64,000 nt of DNA from the NCBI GenBank assembly GCA_900317745.1, contig ONHW01000002.1, positions 124,001 through 188,000 of the forward strand, given 5' to 3'. The DNA comes from an uncultured Bacteroidales bacterium (lineage in GTDB: Bacteria; Bacteroidota; Bacteroidia; Bacteroidales; Paludibacteraceae). Positions 12,754 to 60,853 of this stretch are shown here, in pieces. The translations under genes were made by a program, and so were the position numbers. The notes beneath the pieces were generated by a model. The model was not told the origin of the DNA, did not search any database, and saw nothing but the letters and a program-made list of their open reading frames with translations. Every line of letters starts with the position of its first letter. Position 1 is the stretch's first letter.

Positions 12754-12772
12754 GTTGTCCCGTGCAGACAAA

Positions 12773-12842
12773 CTTTCGACTATCGACTATCGACTATCGA
12801 CTTTCGACTTTCGACTTTCGACTTTCGACTTTCGACTTTCGA
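12773..12842. repeat. Heptamer microsatellite (CTATCGA)3 then (CTTTCGA)n
   Basis: About ten uninterrupted 7-bp units. Read on either strand this heptamer has no stop codon in any frame, so it can pass through reading frames. On the minus strand it extends the reading frame of the adjacent phosphatase remnant as SRKSKVE repeats. Confidence 0.95.
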
Positions 12843-13011
12843 CCAGGGCTTGGCGGATCTTCGGCACAAGGTCGGTGTTATCCATCCAGCCGGTGAACTG
12901 CTCGGCACCCGGACCGATAGCAAAAACCGGCACGGCAGCACCCGTATGACCGTAGTTCGTCCAGCCGAGTTTAGCCTTGTAGTTCAGTATGCAGATCCTT
13001 GTACATCGTGC
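12843..13011 (-). pseudogene. Remnant of an alkaline phosphatase 3' end
   Basis: Bases 12872-12990 are identical to 18633-18751 in the intact alkaline phosphatase gene except at one position (118/119), and 12992-13011 match again after a 14-bp deletion. The encoded fragment (LNYKAKLGWTNYGHTGAAVP, then VFAIGPGAEQFTGWMDNT) is the C-terminal end of that enzyme. Its last residues differ (DLVPKIRQAL rather than EIAPKIMKAV) and run into the heptamer repeat. It has no start, lacks about 90% of the gene and is frameshifted by the deletion. It lies on the far side of the galactan-utilisation genes from the intact copy and in the same orientation. Confidence 0.9.
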
Positions 13012-18576: not shown

Positions 18577-18589
18577 CCCCTTTCGCTTT

Positions 18590-19987
18590 TCACTTTTCAC
18601 CTTCCACGGCTTTCATTATTTTCGGCGCAATCTCGGTGTTATCCATCCAGCCTGTGAACTGCTCGGCACCCGGACCGATAGCAAAAACCGGCACGGCAGC
18701 ACCCGTATGACCGTAGTTCGTCCAGCCGAGTTTAGCCTTGTAGTTCAGTATGTTGCAGAGTTTGTTCAGATCCTTGTACATCGTGCGGAACGAACGTTGG
18801 CTCTTGCTCTTCATCGCCTGCTTGAACGCATCCTTCAGCATACGATCCTCCTTGTCGCTGATCTCCACCTCGCCGTAGAAATCCAGTTGCCGCTCGAGTA
18901 TGGCTTGTATGTCCTGCCACTTCGGGCGCGGCTGACCTTTCTTGAACAGCGCATTGATCTGATCGGACAACACCCACGACGAGCAGTGCTGGTGGCGCAG
19001 GATCTGCAGATTGAGCGTATAATCACTGTTGCCGAGCGCCAAGCCGCCGGTCTCATGGTCGGCTGTAACGACCACCAGGGTCTCCTCCGGGTGCTGACGG
19101 TAGAAATCCATCACGGCACCTACCGCCTGATCGAAATCGAGCATCTCCAGTATATCCGCCGCTCCGTCTCTGCCATGACCGGCATAATCCAACATTCCAC
19201 CCTCGATCATCAGGAAGAACCGCTCATGGTGCTGCTGCAGATAATCGATAGCGAACGGCGTGAGCGCCTTCAGGTGCAGATCCTCCGGACGACCGTCGAT
19301 CATGTACGGGAAGTTACCGCTGCTCTTCTTGCGGCGGTCGATAGCGTCGTTCTCCTGCATGAGGATCAGTTTCTTTGCCTCGCGCTTGAGTTGCGCATCT
19401 TTCAGTCCGCGTGCGAGCGTGTAGCCGTTCTCCTCCGCCAGGTCGTACACGTTCGGTCCGGTCTGTCCCTCAGGCGGCACAGGGCGGTGCAGACCCGCTC
19501 CGCCGAAGAAGTCGAAATCCGTGCGCACGAGCTGCTTGCCGACCTCGTAGTAACTGTCACGGTTCTTGACGTTCGCATAGAACGCCGCAGGCGTGGCGTG
19601 GTCGATAGCCACAGTGGTCAGCAGTCCTACACCCCAGCCCTGTGCCTTCAACTGCTCGGCAATACTCACGAGCGTGTCGCCTTCGGCACTCAGACCCAGC
19701 GTGCCGTTGTTCGTCTTAACACCCGTTGCCAGCGCCGTGCCCGCAGCCGAAGAGTCGGTGATACCGTTGGAGACACTGTGAGTGGCTACCGTGCCTGTAT
19801 AAGGCAGACCGGTGATATGCAGCGGCCGACGACCGATAACACTGTCCAACTCCGCCAGGTACATCTCCGCTGCCAGAATCTCGTTCTGACCCATTCCGTC
19901 ACCGATAAGGTAAAACACGTACTTGATCTCCGAATGAACACTCAAACTGGCGAAAACACACGCCAATACATACAAAAATCGCTTCAT
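18590..19987 (-). CDS. Alkaline phosphatase (PhoA family)
   Basis: A 465-residue secreted phosphomonoesterase. The signal peptide is MKRFLYVLACVFASLSVHSE. The metal site begins at YVFYLIGDGMGQNE. The catalytic serine lies in ITDSSAAGTALATG (about 77). Further metal ligands are in TTVAIDHATPAAF, MIEGGMLDYAGHGRD and VVTADHETGG, and the C-terminal LNYKAKLGWTNYGHTGAAVP supplies the last His. It releases phosphate in the periplasm using two zinc ions and magnesium. It has its own promoter (20005-20012). A fragment of the same 3' end lies 5.8 kb downstream (12872-13011). The frame is open 16 codons upstream of the chosen ATG, which starts the signal peptide. Confidence 0.93.
   Translation of the reverse strand: MKRFLYVLACVFASLSVHSEIKYVFYLIGDGMGQNEILAAEMYLAELDSVIGRRPLHITGLPYTGTVATHSVSNGITDSSAAGTALATGVKTNNGTLGLSAEGDTLVSIAEQLKAQGWGVGLLTTVAIDHATPAAFYANVKNRDSYYEVGKQLVRTDFDFFGGAGLHRPVPPEGQTGPNVYDLAEENGYTLARGLKDAQLKREAKKLILMQENDAIDRRKKSSGNFPYMIDGRPEDLHLKALTPFAIDYLQQHHERFFLMIEGGMLDYAGHGRDGAADILEMLDFDQAVGAVMDFYRQHPEETLVVVTADHETGGLALGNSDYTLNLQILRHQHCSSWVLSDQINALFKKGQPRPKWQDIQAILERQLDFYGEVEISDKEDRMLKDAFKQAMKSKSQRSFRTMYKDLNKLCNILNYKAKLGWTNYGHTGAAVPVFAIGPGAEQFTGWMDNTEIAPKIMKAVEGEK
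18633..18786 (-). repeat. Intact copy of the direct repeat flanking the galactan locus
   Basis: This part of the alkaline phosphatase 3' end is duplicated at 12872-13011 in the same orientation: 118 of 119 bases match, then a 14-bp gap, then 20 identical bases. The two copies bracket susC, susD and the galactanase. Confidence 0.95.
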
Positions 19988-20072: not shown

Positions 20073-20101
20073 ATCGACTTTCGACTTTCGACTTTCGACT
20101 A
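20073..20101. repeat. Heptamer TTTCGAC repeat in the polA leader
   Basis: Four units of the same heptamer as at 12773-12842, directly upstream of the polA ATG. Confidence 0.9.
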
Positions 20102-20114
20102 GATACTATAAATT

Positions 20115-22682
20115 ATGAAACTCCTGCTAATAGATGCATACGCAATGATCTACCGTGCGTACTACGCTTTTATCCGTACGCCGCGTATCAACTCCAAGGG
20201 CGAGAACACGTCCGCTATCTTCGGTTTTGTGGTTACGCTGGACGACCTCCTGCGGAAGATCAACCCCACGCATATCGCCGTGGCGTTTGACCCTCACGGT
20301 CCGACGTTCCGCCACGAGGCGTACCCGCCCTACAAGGCGCAGCGTGAAGAGACACCCGAGGATATACGCCGTGCTGTGCCGGTGATCAAACAACTGCTCG
20401 ACGCCATGCGTATCGTGCGGCTCGAGTGTGCGGGCTTTGAGGCGGATGATGTGATAGGCACGGTGGCACAACAGGCTGAACAGCAGGGGTTTGAGGTGCT
20501 GATGGCTACGCCGGATAAGGATTATGGTCAACTCGTAACCGATCACGTGAACATGTACCGCCCGCGGCACACGGGAGGGTTTGAGCAGATGGGACCGAAA
20601 GAGGTGTGCGAGAAGTACGGCCTGAGCAACCAGCGGCAGGTGATCGACCTGCTGGCACTCATGGGCGATGCATCGGACAACGTGCCCGGCTGCAAAGGCG
20701 TGGGCGAAAAGACTGCTGTCAGTCTGCTGCAGCAGTTCGGCTCAATCGACAACATGCTCGCCCACACTGACCAGATCAAAGGTGCGCTGCGCACGAAGGT
20801 TGAGACCCAGCGCGAGCAGATAGAGTTCTCACGTTTCCTGGTCACCATCCGCACGGACGCACCGGTGGCGTTCAACCCCGCAGAACTGATCGTCCGCCAA
20901 CCTGACAAACAGCAACTCGCGGACCTGTACCGCGAACTGGAGTTTAATTCCATGCTCCGCAAAATAGGGGCTGATAGCCAAGAGTCGAAAGTCGAAAGTC
21001 AAGAGTCGAAAGTCGAAAGTCAAAAGTCGAAAGCAAAGAGTCAGCCGTCAGCCGCACCGAGCAAACCTGTAACTGCGCAACTTGACCTGTTTGCCGAACT
21101 CGAACAACCGTCTGCATCGGTTGATACAAGTGTAATTACTCCTCTCCCCTCCGGGGCCCCCGCGACCAACGGAAGTGGGGTGAACTTGAGGGAGAGGCCG
21201 GGAGAGGGTCCTTCTGACATCTCCTCCCGCCTCTGCGCCTACCTGCTCAACCCCGAGCAGGCGTACAACCCCAACCAACCGCCGCAGTGGGACAAACTCA
21301 AAGCCGATCCGGCACTGTGGAACTTGTACAACGAGGTCGAACTGCCGCTGGTGGAGGTGCTGCGCGATATGGAGCGGGCAGGCGTGCGTTTTGACGTGAA
21401 CATACTCAAGCAGGCCGAACAGCAACTCTCCGCCGAACTCATTGACCTCGAGCAGAAGATCATTGCCGAACTTAACACAATGATTGTCAAACATAGCGAA
21501 GCTAATCACTCTCTCCCCTCCGGGGTCCCCGCGACCAACGGAAGTGGGGTGGTTCTTGAGAGGGGAGCTGGAGGGGTGTCGGGAGACGGGGAGAGGCTTA
21601 TAAATATCAACTCCCCCAAGCAGATCGGCGATATTCTGTTCGGGCAGTTGCAACTCGACCCCAAGGCGAAGAAAGGCCGCAACGGCAACTACTCGACCTC
21701 CGAAGAGGTGCTGCGCGCACTCAAACCCGTAGCACCCGTATGCGGAGACATACTCGACTACCGCGAACTCAAGAAACTGATCTCCACCTATATCACCACC
21801 TTGCCCTCGTACATCAACCCCGCCACAGGCAAGATTCATACCACGTACAACCAGACCGTGACCGCCACCGGGCGACTCTCGTCTTCTAACCCGAACATGC
21901 AGAACCTGCCTATCCGTTCGGAGCGCGGACAACTGATCCGCCGCGCGGTGATTGCCGACCCGGGCTGCAAGATACTGAGTGCCGATTACTCGCAGATCGA
22001 ACTGCGGCTCATGGCACACTTCTCGCAGGACGAACATCTGCTGTACGCTTTCCGCAACGGGCAGGATATACACGCTGCCACGGCGGCAAAGATCTTCAAG
22101 GTGCCTATCAATGAGGTCAGCAAAGAGCAGCGCCGTGCCGCCAAGACGGCTAACTTCGGTATCCTGTACGGCATATCCGCTTTCGGTCTGGCGCAGCAAC
22201 TCGACTGTTCGCGCTCCGAAGCCAAACAACTGATTGACGACTATTTTGCCGCGTTCCCGAAGATCCGCTCGTTCATCGAGGCGCAGAAGGAGTTTGCACG
22301 CGAACACCTGTATGTCGAAACGCTGTTCGGACGCAAACGTTACCTGCCGGATATCGTTTCGCACAACGCTACCGTCCGCGCTTTTGCCGAACGGAACGCC
22401 GTGAACGCACCCGTGCAAGGCACTGCCGCCGATATAATCAAGATTGCCATGGTGGCTATCCACCGCGACCTGCAGGCGCTCAACAACGAATCCGCCAAAA
22501 TTGGCGGATCGCAAGCGCAAATGATCATGCAGGTACACGACGAACTGAACTTCAACGTGCCGGTAGCCATGGTTGATCAGGTGCGGAAGATCGTGGTGGA
22601 CAACATGCAGAACGCCGTGCATCTGTCCGTGCCGCTCATCGCCGAGTGCGGCGTGGGGGACAACTGGCTTGAAGCGCATTAG
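20115..22682 (+). CDS. polA: DNA polymerase I lacking a 3'-5' proofreading domain
   Basis: An 855-residue family A polymerase used in Okazaki-fragment and repair synthesis. Residues 1-285 form the 5' nuclease (FEADDVIGT, GDASDNVPGCKGVGEKTA). The polymerase domain starts near LYNEVELPLVEVLRDMERAG and has motif A DYSQIELR (about 624), motif B RRAAKTANFGILYG (about 674) and motif C QVHDEL (about 806). The proofreading domain normally between them is missing: no DxE, NxxxD or YxxxD motifs, only the tail AYLLNPEQAYN (about 375). It is replaced by a linker made of GTCGAAA-type repeats (288-312) and a palindromic-element peptide (342-367). A second palindromic insert lies at 465-495, just before NINSPKQIG, and a short palindrome at 792-799. 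The conserved polymerase residues suggest it is still active. Confidence 0.95.
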   Translation: MKLLLIDAYAMIYRAYYAFIRTPRINSKGENTSAIFGFVVTLDDLLRKINPTHIAVAFDPHGPTFRHEAYPPYKAQREETPEDIRRAVPVIKQLLDAMRIVRLECAGFEADDVIGTVAQQAEQQGFEVLMATPDKDYGQLVTDHVNMYRPRHTGGFEQMGPKEVCEKYGLSNQRQVIDLLALMGDASDNVPGCKGVGEKTAVSLLQQFGSIDNMLAHTDQIKGALRTKVETQREQIEFSRFLVTIRTDAPVAFNPAELIVRQPDKQQLADLYRELEFNSMLRKIGADSQESKVESQESKVESQKSKAKSQPSAAPSKPVTAQLDLFAELEQPSASVDTSVITPLPSGAPATNGSGVNLRERPGEGPSDISSRLCAYLLNPEQAYNPNQPPQWDKLKADPALWNLYNEVELPLVEVLRDMERAGVRFDVNILKQAEQQLSAELIDLEQKIIAELNTMIVKHSEANHSLPSGVPATNGSGVVLERGAGGVSGDGERLININSPKQIGDILFGQLQLDPKAKKGRNGNYSTSEEVLRALKPVAPVCGDILDYRELKKLISTYITTLPSYINPATGKIHTTYNQTVTATGRLSSSNPNMQNLPIRSERGQLIRRAVIADPGCKILSADYSQIELRLMAHFSQDEHLLYAFRNGQDIHAATAAKIFKVPINEVSKEQRRAAKTANFGILYGISAFGLAQQLDCSRSEAKQLIDDYFAAFPKIRSFIEAQKEFAREHLYVETLFGRKRYLPDIVSHNATVRAFAERNAVNAPVQGTAADIIKIAMVAIHRDLQALNNESAKIGGSQAQMIMQVHDELNFNVPVAMVDQVRKIVVDNMQNAVHLSVPLIAECGVGDNWLEAH
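20976..21048 (+). repeat. In-frame GTCGAAA/GTCAAAA repeat inside polA
   Basis: About ten 7-bp units are read as SKVESQ repeats (residues about 288-312) at the junction where the proofreading domain should begin. Confidence 0.9.
21139..21214 (+). repeat. Palindromic coding element, copy A (polA)
   Basis: A GC-rich element with the core CCGCGACCAACGGAAGTGGG flanked by pyrimidine (cctctcccctcc) and purine (gggagagg) arms that can pair. It is read in frame as PSGAPATNGSGVNLRE. It shares its core with 21508-21600 and 23064-23145. Confidence 0.85.
21508..21600 (+). repeat. Palindromic coding element, copy B (polA)
   Basis: It has the same core and reading frame as copy A, read as PSGVPATNGSGVVLERG. 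The arms are ctctcccctcc and gagaggggag. It interrupts polA just before the conserved NINSPKQ segment. Confidence 0.85.
22489..22510. repeat. Short palindrome AATCCGCCAA/TTGGCGGATC inside polA
   Basis: An inverted repeat read as NESAKIGGS between the palm motifs, just upstream of MIMQVHDEL. It resembles the ATCAGCCAA/TTGGCTGAT spacer palindromes and lengthens a loop that is short in other PolA proteins (from memory). Confidence 0.7.
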
Positions 22683-22714
22683 CAGACCGCTGCGCTGACA
22701 GACCGCTGCGCTGA
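22683..22714. repeat. Two tandem copies of CAGACCGCTGCGCTGA
   Basis: A perfect 16-bp tandem repeat directly after the polA stop. The same word returns in the imelysin/di-haem spacer at 31244-31330. Confidence 0.9.
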
Positions 22715-22749
22715 TAGAAGATAGATTATAGAATAAAGATTAATTAAAT

Positions 22750-24171
22750 ATGCAATATACAAACGCCGTTTTGGTCGGCATTATAACGCCGCAACAACCC
22801 GAGGAGCGAACCAACGAATATCTGGACGAACTTGCGTTCCTCGCCGACACCAACCATATCCAACCTGTCAAACGCTTCGTGCAACGCCTGGAGTACCCCA
22901 ACTCCACGACCTACGTAGGTGAAGGCAAGTTGCAGGAGATACGCGACTATATCATAAATCAGCATGCTACATGCAGCAAGCAGGAGGAGGCACCTATTGA
23001 GTTGGTGATCTTCGATGACGAACTCTCACCACGCCAGATACGCAATATCGAAAAGGCACTGAATACTCCCCTCCCTATCGGGGCCCCCGCGACCAACGGA
23101 AGTGGGGTGAACTTGAGGGAGGGGCAGGGAGTGGGTCTTCGCGTCATGGACCGCACGATACTTATCCTGGAGATCTTCTTGCAGCGCGCGCAGACCTCTT
23201 ACGCCAAGACGCAAGTTGAAATGGCGCACTTGCAATATATGTTGCCGCGCCTGACGCGAATGTGGTCGCACCTCGACCGTCAGCGTGGCGGCGGCGGAAC
23301 GAACCGCGGTACAGGTGAGACGCAGATCGAGGCGGACAAACGTATAATCAACAACCGTATAGCCCTGCTGCGCGAGGATCTCAAGCGCATTGACAAACAG
23401 ATGGCTACGCAGCGCCAGAACAGAGGAAAAATGGTGCGCGTGGCACTCGTCGGATATACGAACGTAGGCAAATCAACATTGATGAACCTACTGAGTAAGT
23501 CGGACGTGTTTGCCGAGAACAAACTGTTCGCTACACTCGATACAACCGTACGCAAAGTGACGATTGACAATCTGCCGTTCTTGCTGTCCGACACGGTAGG
23601 GTTTATCCGCAAACTGCCGCATAACCTCGTTGAGTCGTTCAAGTCAACGCTGGATGAGGTGCGCGAGGCGGACCTGCTCATTCATGTGGTGGATATATCT
23701 CATGCGAACTTCGAAGAGCAGTATGAGGTGGTGGAGCAGACAATCAACGAACTGCTGCAGAAGGACCATCGCGTAGAGGAATCTGACCCGTGGAACGACA
23801 ACAAACCGAATGCCGGCGAGCGCAAGTACAGGGCGAAAGATAAAAAACAAACAGTAATCAACCGTCCGGAGGAGATCGTGGTGTTCAACAAGATTGACGC
23901 GTTCACCTACACTCCGCAGGAGGAGGATGACCTGCTGCCGCCTACGCGCGAAAATATATCTCTCGAAGAACTGCAGCACACCTGGATGGCCAAACTTGGC
24001 GAAACGAGCAAGGCTGTGTTTATCAGCGCACGCAACAAGACGAACATCGACGAACTCCGTGAGATCCTGTACGAACGCGTCAAGGCTATTCATATCAAGC
24101 GCTACCCGTACAACGACTTCCTGTTTCAGCGCTATGACAATCTGGAGGAGAATAAGATTTCTGATTTCTGA
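22750..24171 (+). CDS. hflX: Ribosome-associated GTPase HflX
   Basis: A 473-residue GTPase that splits stalled ribosomes in other bacteria. The N-terminal domain has YVGEGKLQEI and the family phrase FDDELSPRQIRNIEKAL. The helical linker has DRTILILEIFLQRAQTSYAK and GGGGTNRGTGETQIE. The G domain shows GYTNVGKST (about 235), DTVGF (about 281) and NKID (about 380). Residues 106-132 are an insert (LPIGAPATNGSGVNLREGQG) that interrupts a normally continuous segment between EKALN and MDRT; it is copy C of the palindromic element found twice in polA. The last codons (KISDF) and the stop arise from a gatttct repeat. It follows polA by 67 nt, perhaps in one operon. Confidence 0.93.
   Translation: MQYTNAVLVGIITPQQPEERTNEYLDELAFLADTNHIQPVKRFVQRLEYPNSTTYVGEGKLQEIRDYIINQHATCSKQEEAPIELVIFDDELSPRQIRNIEKALNTPLPIGAPATNGSGVNLREGQGVGLRVMDRTILILEIFLQRAQTSYAKTQVEMAHLQYMLPRLTRMWSHLDRQRGGGGTNRGTGETQIEADKRIINNRIALLREDLKRIDKQMATQRQNRGKMVRVALVGYTNVGKSTLMNLLSKSDVFAENKLFATLDTTVRKVTIDNLPFLLSDTVGFIRKLPHNLVESFKSTLDEVREADLLIHVVDISHANFEEQYEVVEQTINELLQKDHRVEESDPWNDNKPNAGERKYRAKDKKQTVINRPEEIVVFNKIDAFTYTPQEEDDLLPPTRENISLEELQHTWMAKLGETSKAVFISARNKTNIDELREILYERVKAIHIKRYPYNDFLFQRYDNLEENKISDF
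23064..23145 (+). repeat. Palindromic coding element, copy C (hflX)
   Basis: It has the same 20-base core as copies A and B, in the same frame. The arms differ from those of copy A (actcccctccc against gggaggggcagggagt) yet still pair with each other, which fits a structured element. Confidence 0.85.
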
Positions 24172-24189
24172 TTTCTGATTTCAGTTTTT

Positions 24190-24753: not shown

Positions 24754-24761
24754 GATTTTAT

Positions 24762-24980
24762 CCTCCCACGGATTAGACGGATTGAACGGATGAGTTTTGA
24801 GATTTTTATTTTACGGATGATATTTTTATTCTCCCACGGATTATACGGATATAACGGATGAGTTTTGAATATTTTATATTTACGGATGGTATAAATTCAT
24901 TGTATCCGTTAGATCCGTTCAATCTGTGGGCGTATCTAATTCATCATATCTGTTTAATCCGTGCCATCTGTGGGCACATT
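24762..24980. repeat. Left repeat array of the GxxExxY locus
   Basis: It contains a 124-bp repeat (24821-24944) matching 25394-25517 with 9 substitutions and no gaps. Within it, cccacggattatacggatataacggat and the complementary-type atccgttagatccgttcaatctgtggg form the arms of a long hairpin. Partial copies lie at 24762-24820 and 24945-24977. It is AT-richer than the surrounding genes. Confidence 0.9.
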
Positions 24981-24983
24981 CTA

Positions 24984-25379
24984 CTATAAGAGAATTTCAG
25001 GGCTATTCGAATTAATACGGCGATGGATAGCACTTTGAATGTTATCCGTGTTGAAATTCACCAATAACCCTACTTTGTTGCCACTTAACCGTAGATAGGT
25101 ATCAATTTGCATAAAATGTACGGGAGCCAATTCGCTAACGGATTTTAATTCGACAATAACTTCGTCTTCTACCAATATGTCAAGTCTTAATCGTGTAGGT
25201 AGTTCTACTCCATCGTACCATATAGGTACATCCAGTTGACTCTCAACCGATAGTCCGTCTTTAGTAAGTTGATAGCATAGGGCTTGTTCATACACAGATT
25301 CAAGTAATCCGGGGCCTAGTTGATTATACACTTTGTATATGCATCCTATTACTTTATATGTTATGTCGTTTATGTTCAT
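24984..25379 (-). CDS. GxxExxY protein (PD-(D/E)XK nuclease-like superfamily)
   Basis: A 131-residue protein. The family signature GPGLLESVYE contains G24-LL-E27-SV-Y30. The nuclease-fold core RLDILVEDEVIVELKS gives D67 and E77-L-K79, the PD-(D/E)XK metal-binding triad, followed by HFMQIDTYLRLSG and VGLLVNF. There is no signal peptide or partner gene. The biological role of GxxExxY proteins is not established. Its codon usage is clearly AT-richer than that of its neighbours, and it is bracketed by 124-bp direct repeats (24821-24944, 25394-25517), which suggests it arrived or moves as a unit of about 0.6-0.8 kb. The ATG at 25379 gives the normal family start (MNINDITYKVIGCIYKV). Confidence 0.88.
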   Translation of the reverse strand: MNINDITYKVIGCIYKVYNQLGPGLLESVYEQALCYQLTKDGLSVESQLDVPIWYDGVELPTRLRLDILVEDEVIVELKSVSELAPVHFMQIDTYLRLSGNKVGLLVNFNTDNIQSAIHRRINSNSPEILL

Positions 25380-25393
25380 TTTTCTAAGGATTG

Positions 25394-25596
25394 TATTTTT
25401 ATTCTCCCACGGATTAGACGGATTGAACGGATGAGCTGTGAATATTTTATATTTACAGATGGTATAAATTCATTATATCCGTTAGATCCGTTCGATCTGT
25501 GGGCGCATCTAATTCATTATATCCGTTAGATCCGTGCTATCCGTGGGCGTATATGTCTCACCGCATCTGTTTGATCCGTGCTATCCGTGGGCGTAT
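25394..25596. repeat. Right repeat array of the GxxExxY locus
   Basis: The 124-bp repeat 25394-25517 corresponds to 24821-24944. Two more partial units follow at 25518-25596 (atccgttagatccgtgctat and atctgtttgatccgtgctat, each ending in ccgtgggcg). The array runs up to the engB stop codon. Confidence 0.9.
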
Positions 25597-31243: not shown

Positions 31244-31340
31244 TAGACCGCTTGCGCTGACAGAAGAGAGACCGGCTTCGCCTGACAGACCGCTGCGCTG
31301 AGAGAAGAGAGACCGGCTTAGCCTGAAAGATAAAAGATTA
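31244..31340. repeat. Spacer of agaccgctgcgctga words
   Basis: Alternating imperfect units agaccgcttgcgctgacag and agaccggcttcgcctgacag in the imelysin/di-haem spacer, related to the tandem repeat at 22683-22714. Some units can pair with each other (gcgctga/ccggctta), but no clear terminator is seen, in line with operon read-through. Confidence 0.75.
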
Positions 31341-59661: not shown

Positions 59662-60771
59662 TTATAGCGAGCACAGGTATTCTGTTGCTTCCCGGAGTTG
59701 TTCTGTAGTGACTTTCTGCCCGACAACGGGCTTGCCTACATCCTTAAGCAAGGAGCAAACGATTGTGCCTTGCTCTTTGTTCTTCTTGTCATGCAGCATG
59801 AGTTGCACCAGGTTATCAAAGTCGCTGCAAGTGATGGGCGCAGCACCGTAGTTCTCCAGCATAAACCGGCTGAGTGTACGTACCACCTCTGCCGGCAAAC
59901 CGCAGATCAGGTGCGACAGGTAGGTCTCTGCCACCATGCCGTACATCACGCAATAGCCGTGTGGCTTAGCCGATTTCTGATTTCTGATTTCTGCTTTCGA
60001 CTTTTGACTTTCGACTTCCGACTTACGTAGTAGCAACGCTTCGATGGCGTGACCTATGGTGTGACCGTAGTTCAGTATCTGGCGCAGACCCTTATCGTGA
60101 GGGTCTTGTTCTACTATCGATTGCTTGAAGGCTACCGACTGCCTGATCAGCTCGCCGAAAGCAGGTGTGGCTGTCTGGCGCAGGTCGTACTCTAACAGTT
60201 CGTCCAGCTGCTTGCGCCCTTGCAGTATGGCGTGCTTGATCATCTCGGCATAGCCGGACAACAGTTGTTCGGCAGGCAGTGTAGCCAACAGTTCGGGGCG
60301 GATAATCGTTTCTACCGGTTCGGCGAACACGCCTATAGCGTTCTTCAATGACGCTATACCGCTCGCCGCTGATTGCGGCGTGTAATCAATGCCTGTCTTG
60401 CCGCCCGTGCCGGCATCTACCATCGCCAGCAGGGTAGTGGGGATATTCATATAATGTATCCCGCGCATGTAGGTGGAGGCTGCAAAACCTCCCATGTCGC
60501 ATATCACTCCGCCGCCTATATTGATGAGCAAACTGTTGCGCGTAGCGCCCTGCTCGAACAGAAAATCCCAGATACGTTGCACAGAACTGAGGTTCTTGTA
60601 CTCCTCACCGGCAGGCAGGATCAATGTCGGCGTATCAGCCAAACTTGGCTGGTACATGCTAAAAACAACGGGCAGGCAGCACTTGGCTACCTGCTCGTCG
60701 GTCAGCACGAACACTCCGTCATATCGGTGCATAAGCATCGTAAGATTGTCGAGTGTATTGTGTGCAGTCAT
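59662..60771 (-). CDS. aroB: 3-dehydroquinate synthase with repeat-derived inserts
   Basis: A 369-residue second enzyme of the shikimate pathway (DAHP to 3-dehydroquinate, NAD- and metal-dependent). Family phrases are LILPAGEEYKNLSSVQRIWD, INIGGGVICDMGGFAASTYMRG, PTTLLAMVDAGTGGKTGID, SGYAEMIKHAIL and LNYGHTIGHAIEA; the metal-binding residues lie in the last two and in KPHGYCVMYGM. Between HAIEALLL and KPHGYC there is an extra stretch (RKSEVESQKSKAEIRNQKSA) encoded by the GTCGAAA and AAATCAG repeat families. A second repeat, the CAGCCAA palindrome, is read as YQPSLADTP near residue 40. Both lie in surface-loop positions, and the catalytic motifs are intact, so the enzyme should work. Confidence 0.94.
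   Translation of the reverse strand: MTAHNTLDNLTMLMHRYDGVFVLTDEQVAKCCLPVVFSMYQPSLADTPTLILPAGEEYKNLSSVQRIWDFLFEQGATRNSLLINIGGGVICDMGGFAASTYMRGIHYMNIPTTLLAMVDAGTGGKTGIDYTPQSAASGIASLKNAIGVFAEPVETIIRPELLATLPAEQLLSGYAEMIKHAILQGRKQLDELLEYDLRQTATPAFGELIRQSVAFKQSIVEQDPHDKGLRQILNYGHTIGHAIEALLLRKSEVESQKSKAEIRNQKSAKPHGYCVMYGMVAETYLSHLICGLPAEVVRTLSRFMLENYGAAPITCSDFDNLVQLMLHDKKNKEQGTIVCSLLKDVGKPVVGQKVTTEQLREATEYLCSL
59970..60024. repeat. Repeat insert inside aroB
   Basis: Tandem gatttct and ctttcga/cttttga heptamers, read in frame on the minus strand as about 18 residues between two conserved AroB motifs. Confidence 0.85.
60634..60652. repeat. CAGCCAA/TTGGCTG palindrome inside aroB
   Basis: ATCAGCCAAACTTGGCTGGT, 18 of 20 positions palindromic, read in frame as part of YQPSLADTP. 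The same sequence stands in the spacer downstream of the gene. Confidence 0.85.
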
Positions 60772-60779
60772 AATTTAGC

Positions 60780-60848
60780 TTTTGTCTTTCGACTTTTGAC
60801 TTTTGTCTTTCGACTTTTGACTATTGTCTTTCGACTTTCTACTATTGT
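60780..60848. repeat. Heptamer array between tig and aroB
   Basis: About ten imperfect units of ctttcga/cttttga/ctattgt fill the whole spacer between trigger factor and aroB. Confidence 0.9.
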
Positions 60849-60853
60849 CTCAT

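Follow-up and report, generated by a model that had tools for sequence, protein, structure and literature searches.

Nested palindromic repeats read in frame within polA and hflX of an uncultured Paludibacteraceae bacterium

A two-layered repeat in polA and hflX

The window considered in this work is a stretch of 64,000 nt (contig ONHW01000002.1, positions 124,001-188,000, assembly GCA_900317745.1) from an uncultured Bacteroidales bacterium of the family Paludibacteraceae. It contains the genes encoding DNA polymerase I (polA) and the GTPase HflX (hflX), and within them three copies of a palindromic element of 76-78 nt, two in polA (sites polA1 and polA2) and one in hflX. All three are read on one strand and in one frame, with the peptide (A/V)PATNGSGV, in agreement with the original prediction, made from the letters of this DNA, which had placed three in-frame copies in these genes and assigned them a common core. 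In fact, the core GACCAACGGAAGTGGG, searched with up to two mismatches, is matched three times in the window, at 21164, 21533 and 23091, each time exactly and on the + strand, and none of 100 shuffled windows reached three matches. The predicted ends of the copies were close to those measured here (Table 1), except for the right end of copy 2, set at 21600, which overshoots the element. Among known RNA families, only one tRNA in the window reaches its gathering score.

Each window copy is a two-layered dispersed repeat, in which a hairpin, B, lies inside the loop of a palindrome, A; the element had been taken for a single repeat, and its composition from two separable ones, here denoted A(B), was missed. 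Repeat A is a palindrome of about 40 nt resembling repetitive extragenic palindromic (REP) sequences, with the consensus CTCCCTTCCCTTYAGGGAGGGGCNGGGGGTAGGCTT drawn from 19 aligned copies, and has a sister form of 42 nt with the loop TATGA. Repeat B, found in the loop of A, is a hairpin of about 36 nt, GGGGTCCCCGC..GYGGGGTG. When the draft genome from which the window derives (the source genome; 2.6 Mb, 38 contigs) was searched with the core at up to two mismatches, seven composites were found, and the reversed pattern used as a control gave none. In the named genome collection the degenerate core pattern, at the same tolerance, is present in three Bacteroidales metagenome-assembled genomes (MAGs), namely G039, an uncultured Bacteroidales MAG with 92-93% DNA identity to the source genome over polA-hflX, G040 (UBA1180) and G041, a Paludibacteraceae MAG from goat reticulum; it was found neither in 12 further genomes from the genus nor in 8 from the order. 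The collection gave ten core matches, of which four (L078, L079, L082, L083), in two Bacteroidales MAGs, have arms, and one (L087), in the third, has the core without arms. The other five, in Verrucomicrobium, two Streptomyces, an actinomycete and UBP9, were set aside as likely chance matches, since they have no arms, and the ten core matches in the viral collection are likewise all armless.

The two layers also occur apart. A model built from the seven composites matched the source genome 49 times with E no higher than 1; all seven full copies have E < 1e-16, and the weaker matches, mostly of 38-51 nt, retain both ends of the model and lack its middle. On the 12 other genus genomes the same model gave 18 weaker matches in five genomes (best E 0.012), and a short pattern for the simple form was matched 11 times in the source genome and is present in 6 of 30 congeners. 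With a model of repeat A, matches amounted to at least 59 in the source genome, 25 in G039, 11 in G040 and 8 in G041, counts that are lower bounds, since at most 150 candidates were scored per genome, in the source genome 150 of 454. Removal of two composites, seven opposite-strand duplicates and one weak match (C9:5422, E 0.51) from the 59 leaves at least 49 listed A copies without B, which include one truncated match (C15:43595) and two copies, L199 (C19:85076-85132) and L197 (C23:39225-39280), with a different hairpin, CCCCCTCGGGG, in the loop position of B. The B hairpin pattern, searched without arms, was matched 15 times in the source genome, 8 in G039, 7 in G040 and 16 in G041, and its reversed control in none of the four; the 15 matches correspond to six of the seven composites and nine copies without A arms, and variant cores of B include CCCCACAAATAACATGCAGTGGGG and CCCCGCAAGCAACGCGCAGCGGGG.

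In each window copy an exact Watson-Crick stem of 8-9 bp joins the pyrimidine arm on the 5' side to the proximal portion of the purine arm on the 3' side, although the arm sequences differ from copy to copy. Among ten non-orthologous copies, from which the orthologous G039polA1 and G039OMP were excluded, exact stems of 8-10 bp are found in nine, the G041 copy having 5 bp and an arm with an extra base. The exact stem formed with a copy's own arm averages 8.4 bp, compared with 7.18 bp for swapped arms, and 9 of 20,000 permutations reached the own-arm average; on the six distinct arm types 134 of 20,000 were as good.

Table 1. Composite elements, inner hairpins, host genes and a neighboring array (window coordinates)
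Feature	Position	Strand	Description
Composite A(B), copy 1	21137..21212	+	polA, between the 5'-nuclease and polymerase domains; reads ITPLPSGAPATNGSGVNLRERPGEGP
Inner hairpin B, copy 1	21152..21187	+	from alignment and B pattern; junctions approximate
Composite A(B), copy 2	21505..21582	+	polA, directly ahead of the conserved NINSPKQ segment; reads NHSLPSGVPATNGSGVVLERGAGGVSG
Inner hairpin B, copy 2	21521..21557	+	from alignment and B pattern; junctions approximate
Composite A(B), copy 3	23064..23139	+	hflX, between the GTP-bdg_N and GTP-bdg_M domains; reads NTPLPIGAPATNGSGVNLREGQGVGL
Inner hairpin B, copy 3	23079..23114	+	36 nt, the length difference to the simple A of G040 at the hflX site
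polA	20115..22682	+	DNA polymerase I, host gene, 855 aa
hflX	22750..24171	+	GTPase HflX, host gene, 473 aa
Heptamer array AGTCGAA	20979..21042	+	in frame in polA as SQESKVESQ; separate repeat class, same linker as copy 1

Position in the proteins, reading frames and host genes

The inserts extend both conserved proteins at loops, as had been proposed. Structure alignments of PolA cover the polA2 insert, the polA1 linker being outside the aligned parts, and place residues 450-495 between blocks aligned to Taq polymerase 417-474 and 482-830, where the gap corresponds to seven Taq residues. Likewise, HflX residues 106-127 have no counterpart in two solved HflX chains aligned residue by residue, and AlphaFold models the stretches holding the inserts as coil with a predicted local distance difference test score (pLDDT) below 50, at HflX 113-126 and at PolA 288-366 and 468-492. 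The PATNGSGV insert is found in none of 19 PolA and none of 19 HflX proteins of the genus that were aligned, one PolA being too short at the second site. In some congeners, peptides that look like other repeats occupy the same linkers or further ones, with PSPEGRSGGVSS in HflX of one and TSPQPSLHEREG with VSSLEGRQGGVS in HflX of another, PSLEGREGVGV in PolA of one and NPSPVTG repeats in PolA of another, and we therefore consider that the linkers of PolA and HflX acquire repeats repeatedly. The Pfam domains listed for the window PolA (E up to 1e-4) are the 5'-nuclease and polymerase domains, with no 3'-5' exonuclease domain among them. The open frames of PolA span 771-907 aa in 29 of 31 genus genomes and are truncated in the other two.

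Beyond the three window copies, the composites use other frames and the opposite strand. Four of the seven in the source genome lie elsewhere: one in a MATE transporter gene, in another sense frame (TPLPGSPRPAEVGWF), one antisense in an HU-like gene (HPTTVGRGDPGG), and two between genes, one of which (L005) is also readable as an N-terminal extension. In the relatives, composites lie in a G040 open reading frame (ORF) with an SGGKDS motif, in the PATNGSGV frame, in a G039 ORF of 171 aa, in the third sense frame (RGPRDQRKWGE), and, with a variant core, in a further G040 ORF (L141), in the frame reading GVPASNAQRGV; these three ORFs were identified as open frames alone, and the first we take to be TtcA-like. 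A copy in G041 (L215) lies inside no ORF of at least 150 aa.

These data bear on the explanation first offered, that the element, of the Rickettsia type, is kept in genes owing to one shared frame, that of APATNGSGV, which is open and whose peptide is tolerated. All three copies in the window do share this frame, as do the polA1 site of G039 and the SGGKDS ORF of G040, and one sense frame of the polA1/hflX-type copies carries a TGA, as had been noted for another frame of the core. Nevertheless, the MATE, HU-like and 171-aa ORF copies are read in other frames or from the opposite strand, four or five of the six frames are open in each of the seven composites, and A copies occupy both strands, which makes this explanation unlikely; the shared frame appears to reflect mostly the small sample that the window provides. 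The original prediction had also named, as findings that would count against it, copies in all frames and mostly between genes: several frames are in use, whereas five of the seven composites of the source genome lie in genes.

The simple repeat is widespread in genes as well. Seventeen of the 49 listed A copies, ten in sense and seven in antisense orientation, are spanned by an ORF with a Pfam domain: PrmC-like, MATE, FemAB, PDDEXK, RimO-like, LRR, DUF4886, RlmN, ABC ATPase, RmlD, Mur ligase/alanine racemase, DsbD, ArgS, TonB-plug, DNA ligase, S9 peptidase and MBOAT. Gene names that go beyond the Pfam names are our assumption, and the neighbors of L001 are presumably an outer membrane protein (OMP) gene and dnaG. 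Some of the 17 host ORFs have their copy close to one end and not within the domain. The filter required at least 150 codons, with at least 25 before and 15 after the copy, and the Pfam scan took 28 of 43 distinct non-window ORFs and the two window proteins; the 15 left out were mostly alternative frames of covered copies, and the copies L178, L190 and L199 had no ORF scanned. For the remaining 32 A copies the ORF failed the filter, went unscanned or gave no Pfam match. When four of the nine armless B copies were taken through the same steps, three were found in DUF1015, M20-peptidase and UvrA-like genes. Among the hosts, a PDDEXK protein (L180, C4:13163) contains two A-like peptides in tandem, and the MATE gene (L007, C34:58603 and 58978) carries both A(B) and A.

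Other repeats are also present in the window. Heptamer arrays (AGTCGAA, ACTTTCG, GATTTCT) lie at 20979-21042, 12772-12843, 20074-20100, 24156-24182, 59972-60024 and 60779-60850, and matches to the one in polA are dispersed in G039. The repeat CAGACCGCTGCGCTGACAGAAG occurs at 22683-22718 and 31245-31330, one array thus lying between polA and hflX, and several armless B copies adjoin sequence similar to it. Longer repeats of about 170-220 bp with 72-89% identity pair 12815-12991 with 18580-18752 and 24756-24975 with 25379-25592.

Orthologous sites in related genomes

A comparison of polA and hflX alleles that have the insert with alleles that lack it had been proposed at the outset, and both kinds of site were found among G039, G040 and G041. 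In the hflX loop the source genome has A(B) and G040 a simple A at the identical position (E 0.002 with the repeat A model), the peptides reading TPLPI[GAPATNGSGVNL]REGQGVGL and TPSPM-REGQGKGL, respectively, so that the former is longer by 36 nt, or 12 residues. G039 and G041 carry there a diverged stretch, 39 nt shorter than in the source genome, which may be read as a decayed A; another hflX loop of G040 holds a B-like core (SGVPASNTQRGA). At polA2, the A(B) of the source genome corresponds to a simple A in G039, matched by the model, to an A with a variant B core in G040, and to neither repeat in G041. At polA1, A(B) is shared by the source genome and G039, whereas G041 has a simple A, also matched by the model, and G040 a B-like core without A arms. 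The length differences to the source genome, in the order G039, G040 and G041, are 39, 36 and 39 nt at hflX, 60, 18 and 72 nt at polA2, and -6, 12 and 3 nt at polA1, all of them multiples of three.

At a second locus, the composite in the HU-like gene is absent from G039, G040 and G041, as is the A copy in the RimO-like gene, where G039 has heptamer repeats, and the B copy in the UvrA-like gene is absent from G040 and G041, the site being outside the G039 contig.

A nucleic-acid element under selection, such as an attenuator, an RNase site or a binding site for gyrase, IHF or DNA polymerase I, for which the location in genes would be incidental, could account for arms that vary among copies and pair within each copy, and REPs elsewhere are described as binding DNA polymerase I, gyrase and IHF in an account given in PMC1525189. 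We judge this improbable, since arms or cores are altered or missing at the orthologous sites of close relatives and both strands of many unrelated genes are used. An ancestral segment of PolA and HflX lost in the relatives, which the original prediction had raised against itself and in favor of which nothing was found, can be dismissed almost entirely, the insert being absent from the 19 PolA and 19 HflX proteins and, at polA2 and hflX, from the solved structures, and dispersed genome-wide. An assembly or binning artefact deserves as little credence in spite of the draft state of the genome, with its 38 contigs, as another MAG has the polA1 composite and the one beside an OMP-like gene at the corresponding places and the host frames remain open.

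Origin of the inserts and comparison with known systems

The repeats are, in our judgement, quite probably nested palindromes tolerated in genes as passengers. This explanation draws on what is directly established, namely the anatomy of the repeats, their in-frame insertion, the A-only, A(B), B-like and empty states of orthologous sites, and the use of several frames and both strands. Copies are inserted in genes on both strands and in more than one frame, and the survivors preserve the frame and occupy exposed linkers, so that the encoded peptide would be a passenger, presumably neutral. We further hypothesize that B entered a resident A, as opposed to a conversion that exchanged A for A(B) or a loss of B that left A behind. 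Since B contributes 36 nt, its entry into an A that is already tolerated would add 12 residues to the protein and leave the frame intact, and the two A copies that carry CCCCCTCGGGG in the same position would make the loop of A a general landing site. Tentatively, then, B might be a minimal element for which the loop of a second hairpin repeat serves as target, with genes growing by stacked steps from empty to A to A(B) and related genomes preserving the intermediate steps.

As to the mobility of A, a transposase of the HUH class and of the RAYT kind may be responsible. In a Y1_Tnp search the source genome gave a match below the cut-off, and a search with that protein led to four homologous RAYT-like genes (L219:2176-3276, L231, L232 and L233). 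An HUH-type motif is visible in three of the four proteins, one matches NCBIfam REP_Tyr_transpos with E 5e-7, under the family cut-off, and relatives occur in 21 of the 31 genomes of the genus sample, the source genome included. That these proteins mobilize A is a guess, which we hold to be possible and rather doubtful. The RAYT-like protein on C33 (L233) has tandem peptide repeats of its own, LDITDAEHRTRMKK and KLWEDGNNDR.

Several observations weigh against tolerated, mobile passengers as an explanation. A and B motifs are missing from the fetched flanks (about 1.7-5 kb) of the four RAYT-like genes, save for one gene, which has two A copies at a distance of about 3 kb, and the repeat A model lists no match at the hflX stretch of G039 and G041. 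The in-gene composites lean to the PATNGSGV frame, in three of five cases in the source genome and in five of eight once distinct sites of relatives, one with a variant core, are added, so a weak frame preference may exist. Moreover, the AlphaFold models of the two proteins drew on 21 and 22 sequences and have mean pLDDT values of 62 and 73, and the genomes compared are drafts. With regard to the arms, a looser energy test that admitted G-U pairs failed to distinguish a copy's own arms from exchanged ones (6,819 of 20,000 permutations did equally well, and two of the ten rows were mis-sliced), any pyrimidine arm then pairing with any purine arm, and RNA folds of single copies are of ordinary stability (z -0.4 to -1.1). 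The proposal that differing arms pair within their copy is accordingly upheld by exact pairing and not by the energy test or the single folds, and in view of these results the support from arm pairing is moderate.

Palindromes within protein genes have been described from Rickettsia and from some REP-rich genomes, and the resemblance to Rickettsia palindromic elements (RPEs) noted at the outset is real in that palindromic repeats lie in frame within conserved genes, here polA (twice), hflX, the MATE gene and the HU-like gene. As described in PMC2229807, RPEs are Rickettsia-specific, measure 105-146 bp, are fused in frame into conserved genes and are regarded as neutral or slightly harmful. The present elements differ in size (composites of 76-78 nt, A of 40-42 nt and B of 36 nt at hflX) and in host, their relatives being found in Bacteroidales MAGs; stems of inverted repeats at their ends, of 8-10 bp in nine of ten copies, are a shared feature, and are shorter than the 12-bp inverted repeats reported for RPEs in the same source.

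Likeness to REPs is also partial. Intragenic REPs, many in DNA synthesis and repair genes including that of DNA polymerase I, are reported in PMC3733652, where the phyla named for GTAG repeats are others than Bacteroidetes, as far as that account lists them. Canonical REPs have the GT(A/G)G tetranucleotide at the 5' foot of the hairpin, and RAYT subclasses exist, some of them mainly in Bacteroidetes, according to the description in PMC6006769. Repeat A is, like the GTAG REPs, a dispersed palindrome of about 40 nt (20-40 nt being usual for such repeats) in many copies, at least 49 without B, with GTAG or GTGG at one end. Nevertheless, GTAGG lies 3' of its hairpin, with GTGGG in the sister form, instead of GT(A/G)G at the 5' foot, and a repeat-flanked RAYT gene was not seen in the fetched flanks. 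REPs tagged with CGTC, short palindromes that are also intragenic, are reported from Bacteroidetes among others in PMC3733652; no CGTC end is present in the consensus of A or A(B). Insertion sequences are known to target REPs, as mentioned in PMC1525189, and nested palindromes were recorded as GTAG-15 of A. variabilis and CGTC-1 of H. neapolitanus, the target palindrome alone not being found there, in the survey of PMC3733652. One repeat likewise lies within another here, but each layer is also found without the other, and the composite lies in frame within genes. Judged by titles, no description of intragenic palindromes in Bacteroidales or of this element was recognised in the literature. 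The repeats described here behave like intragenic REPs and RPEs, yet lack defining features of each. What is new here is a Bacteroidales lineage with palindromes in many conserved genes, two nested layers and intermediates in sister genomes. It provides a testable system for studying how functional enzymes gain peptide from hairpin repeats, and it cautions those who annotate genomes of this group that a linker in a conserved protein could be repeat DNA.

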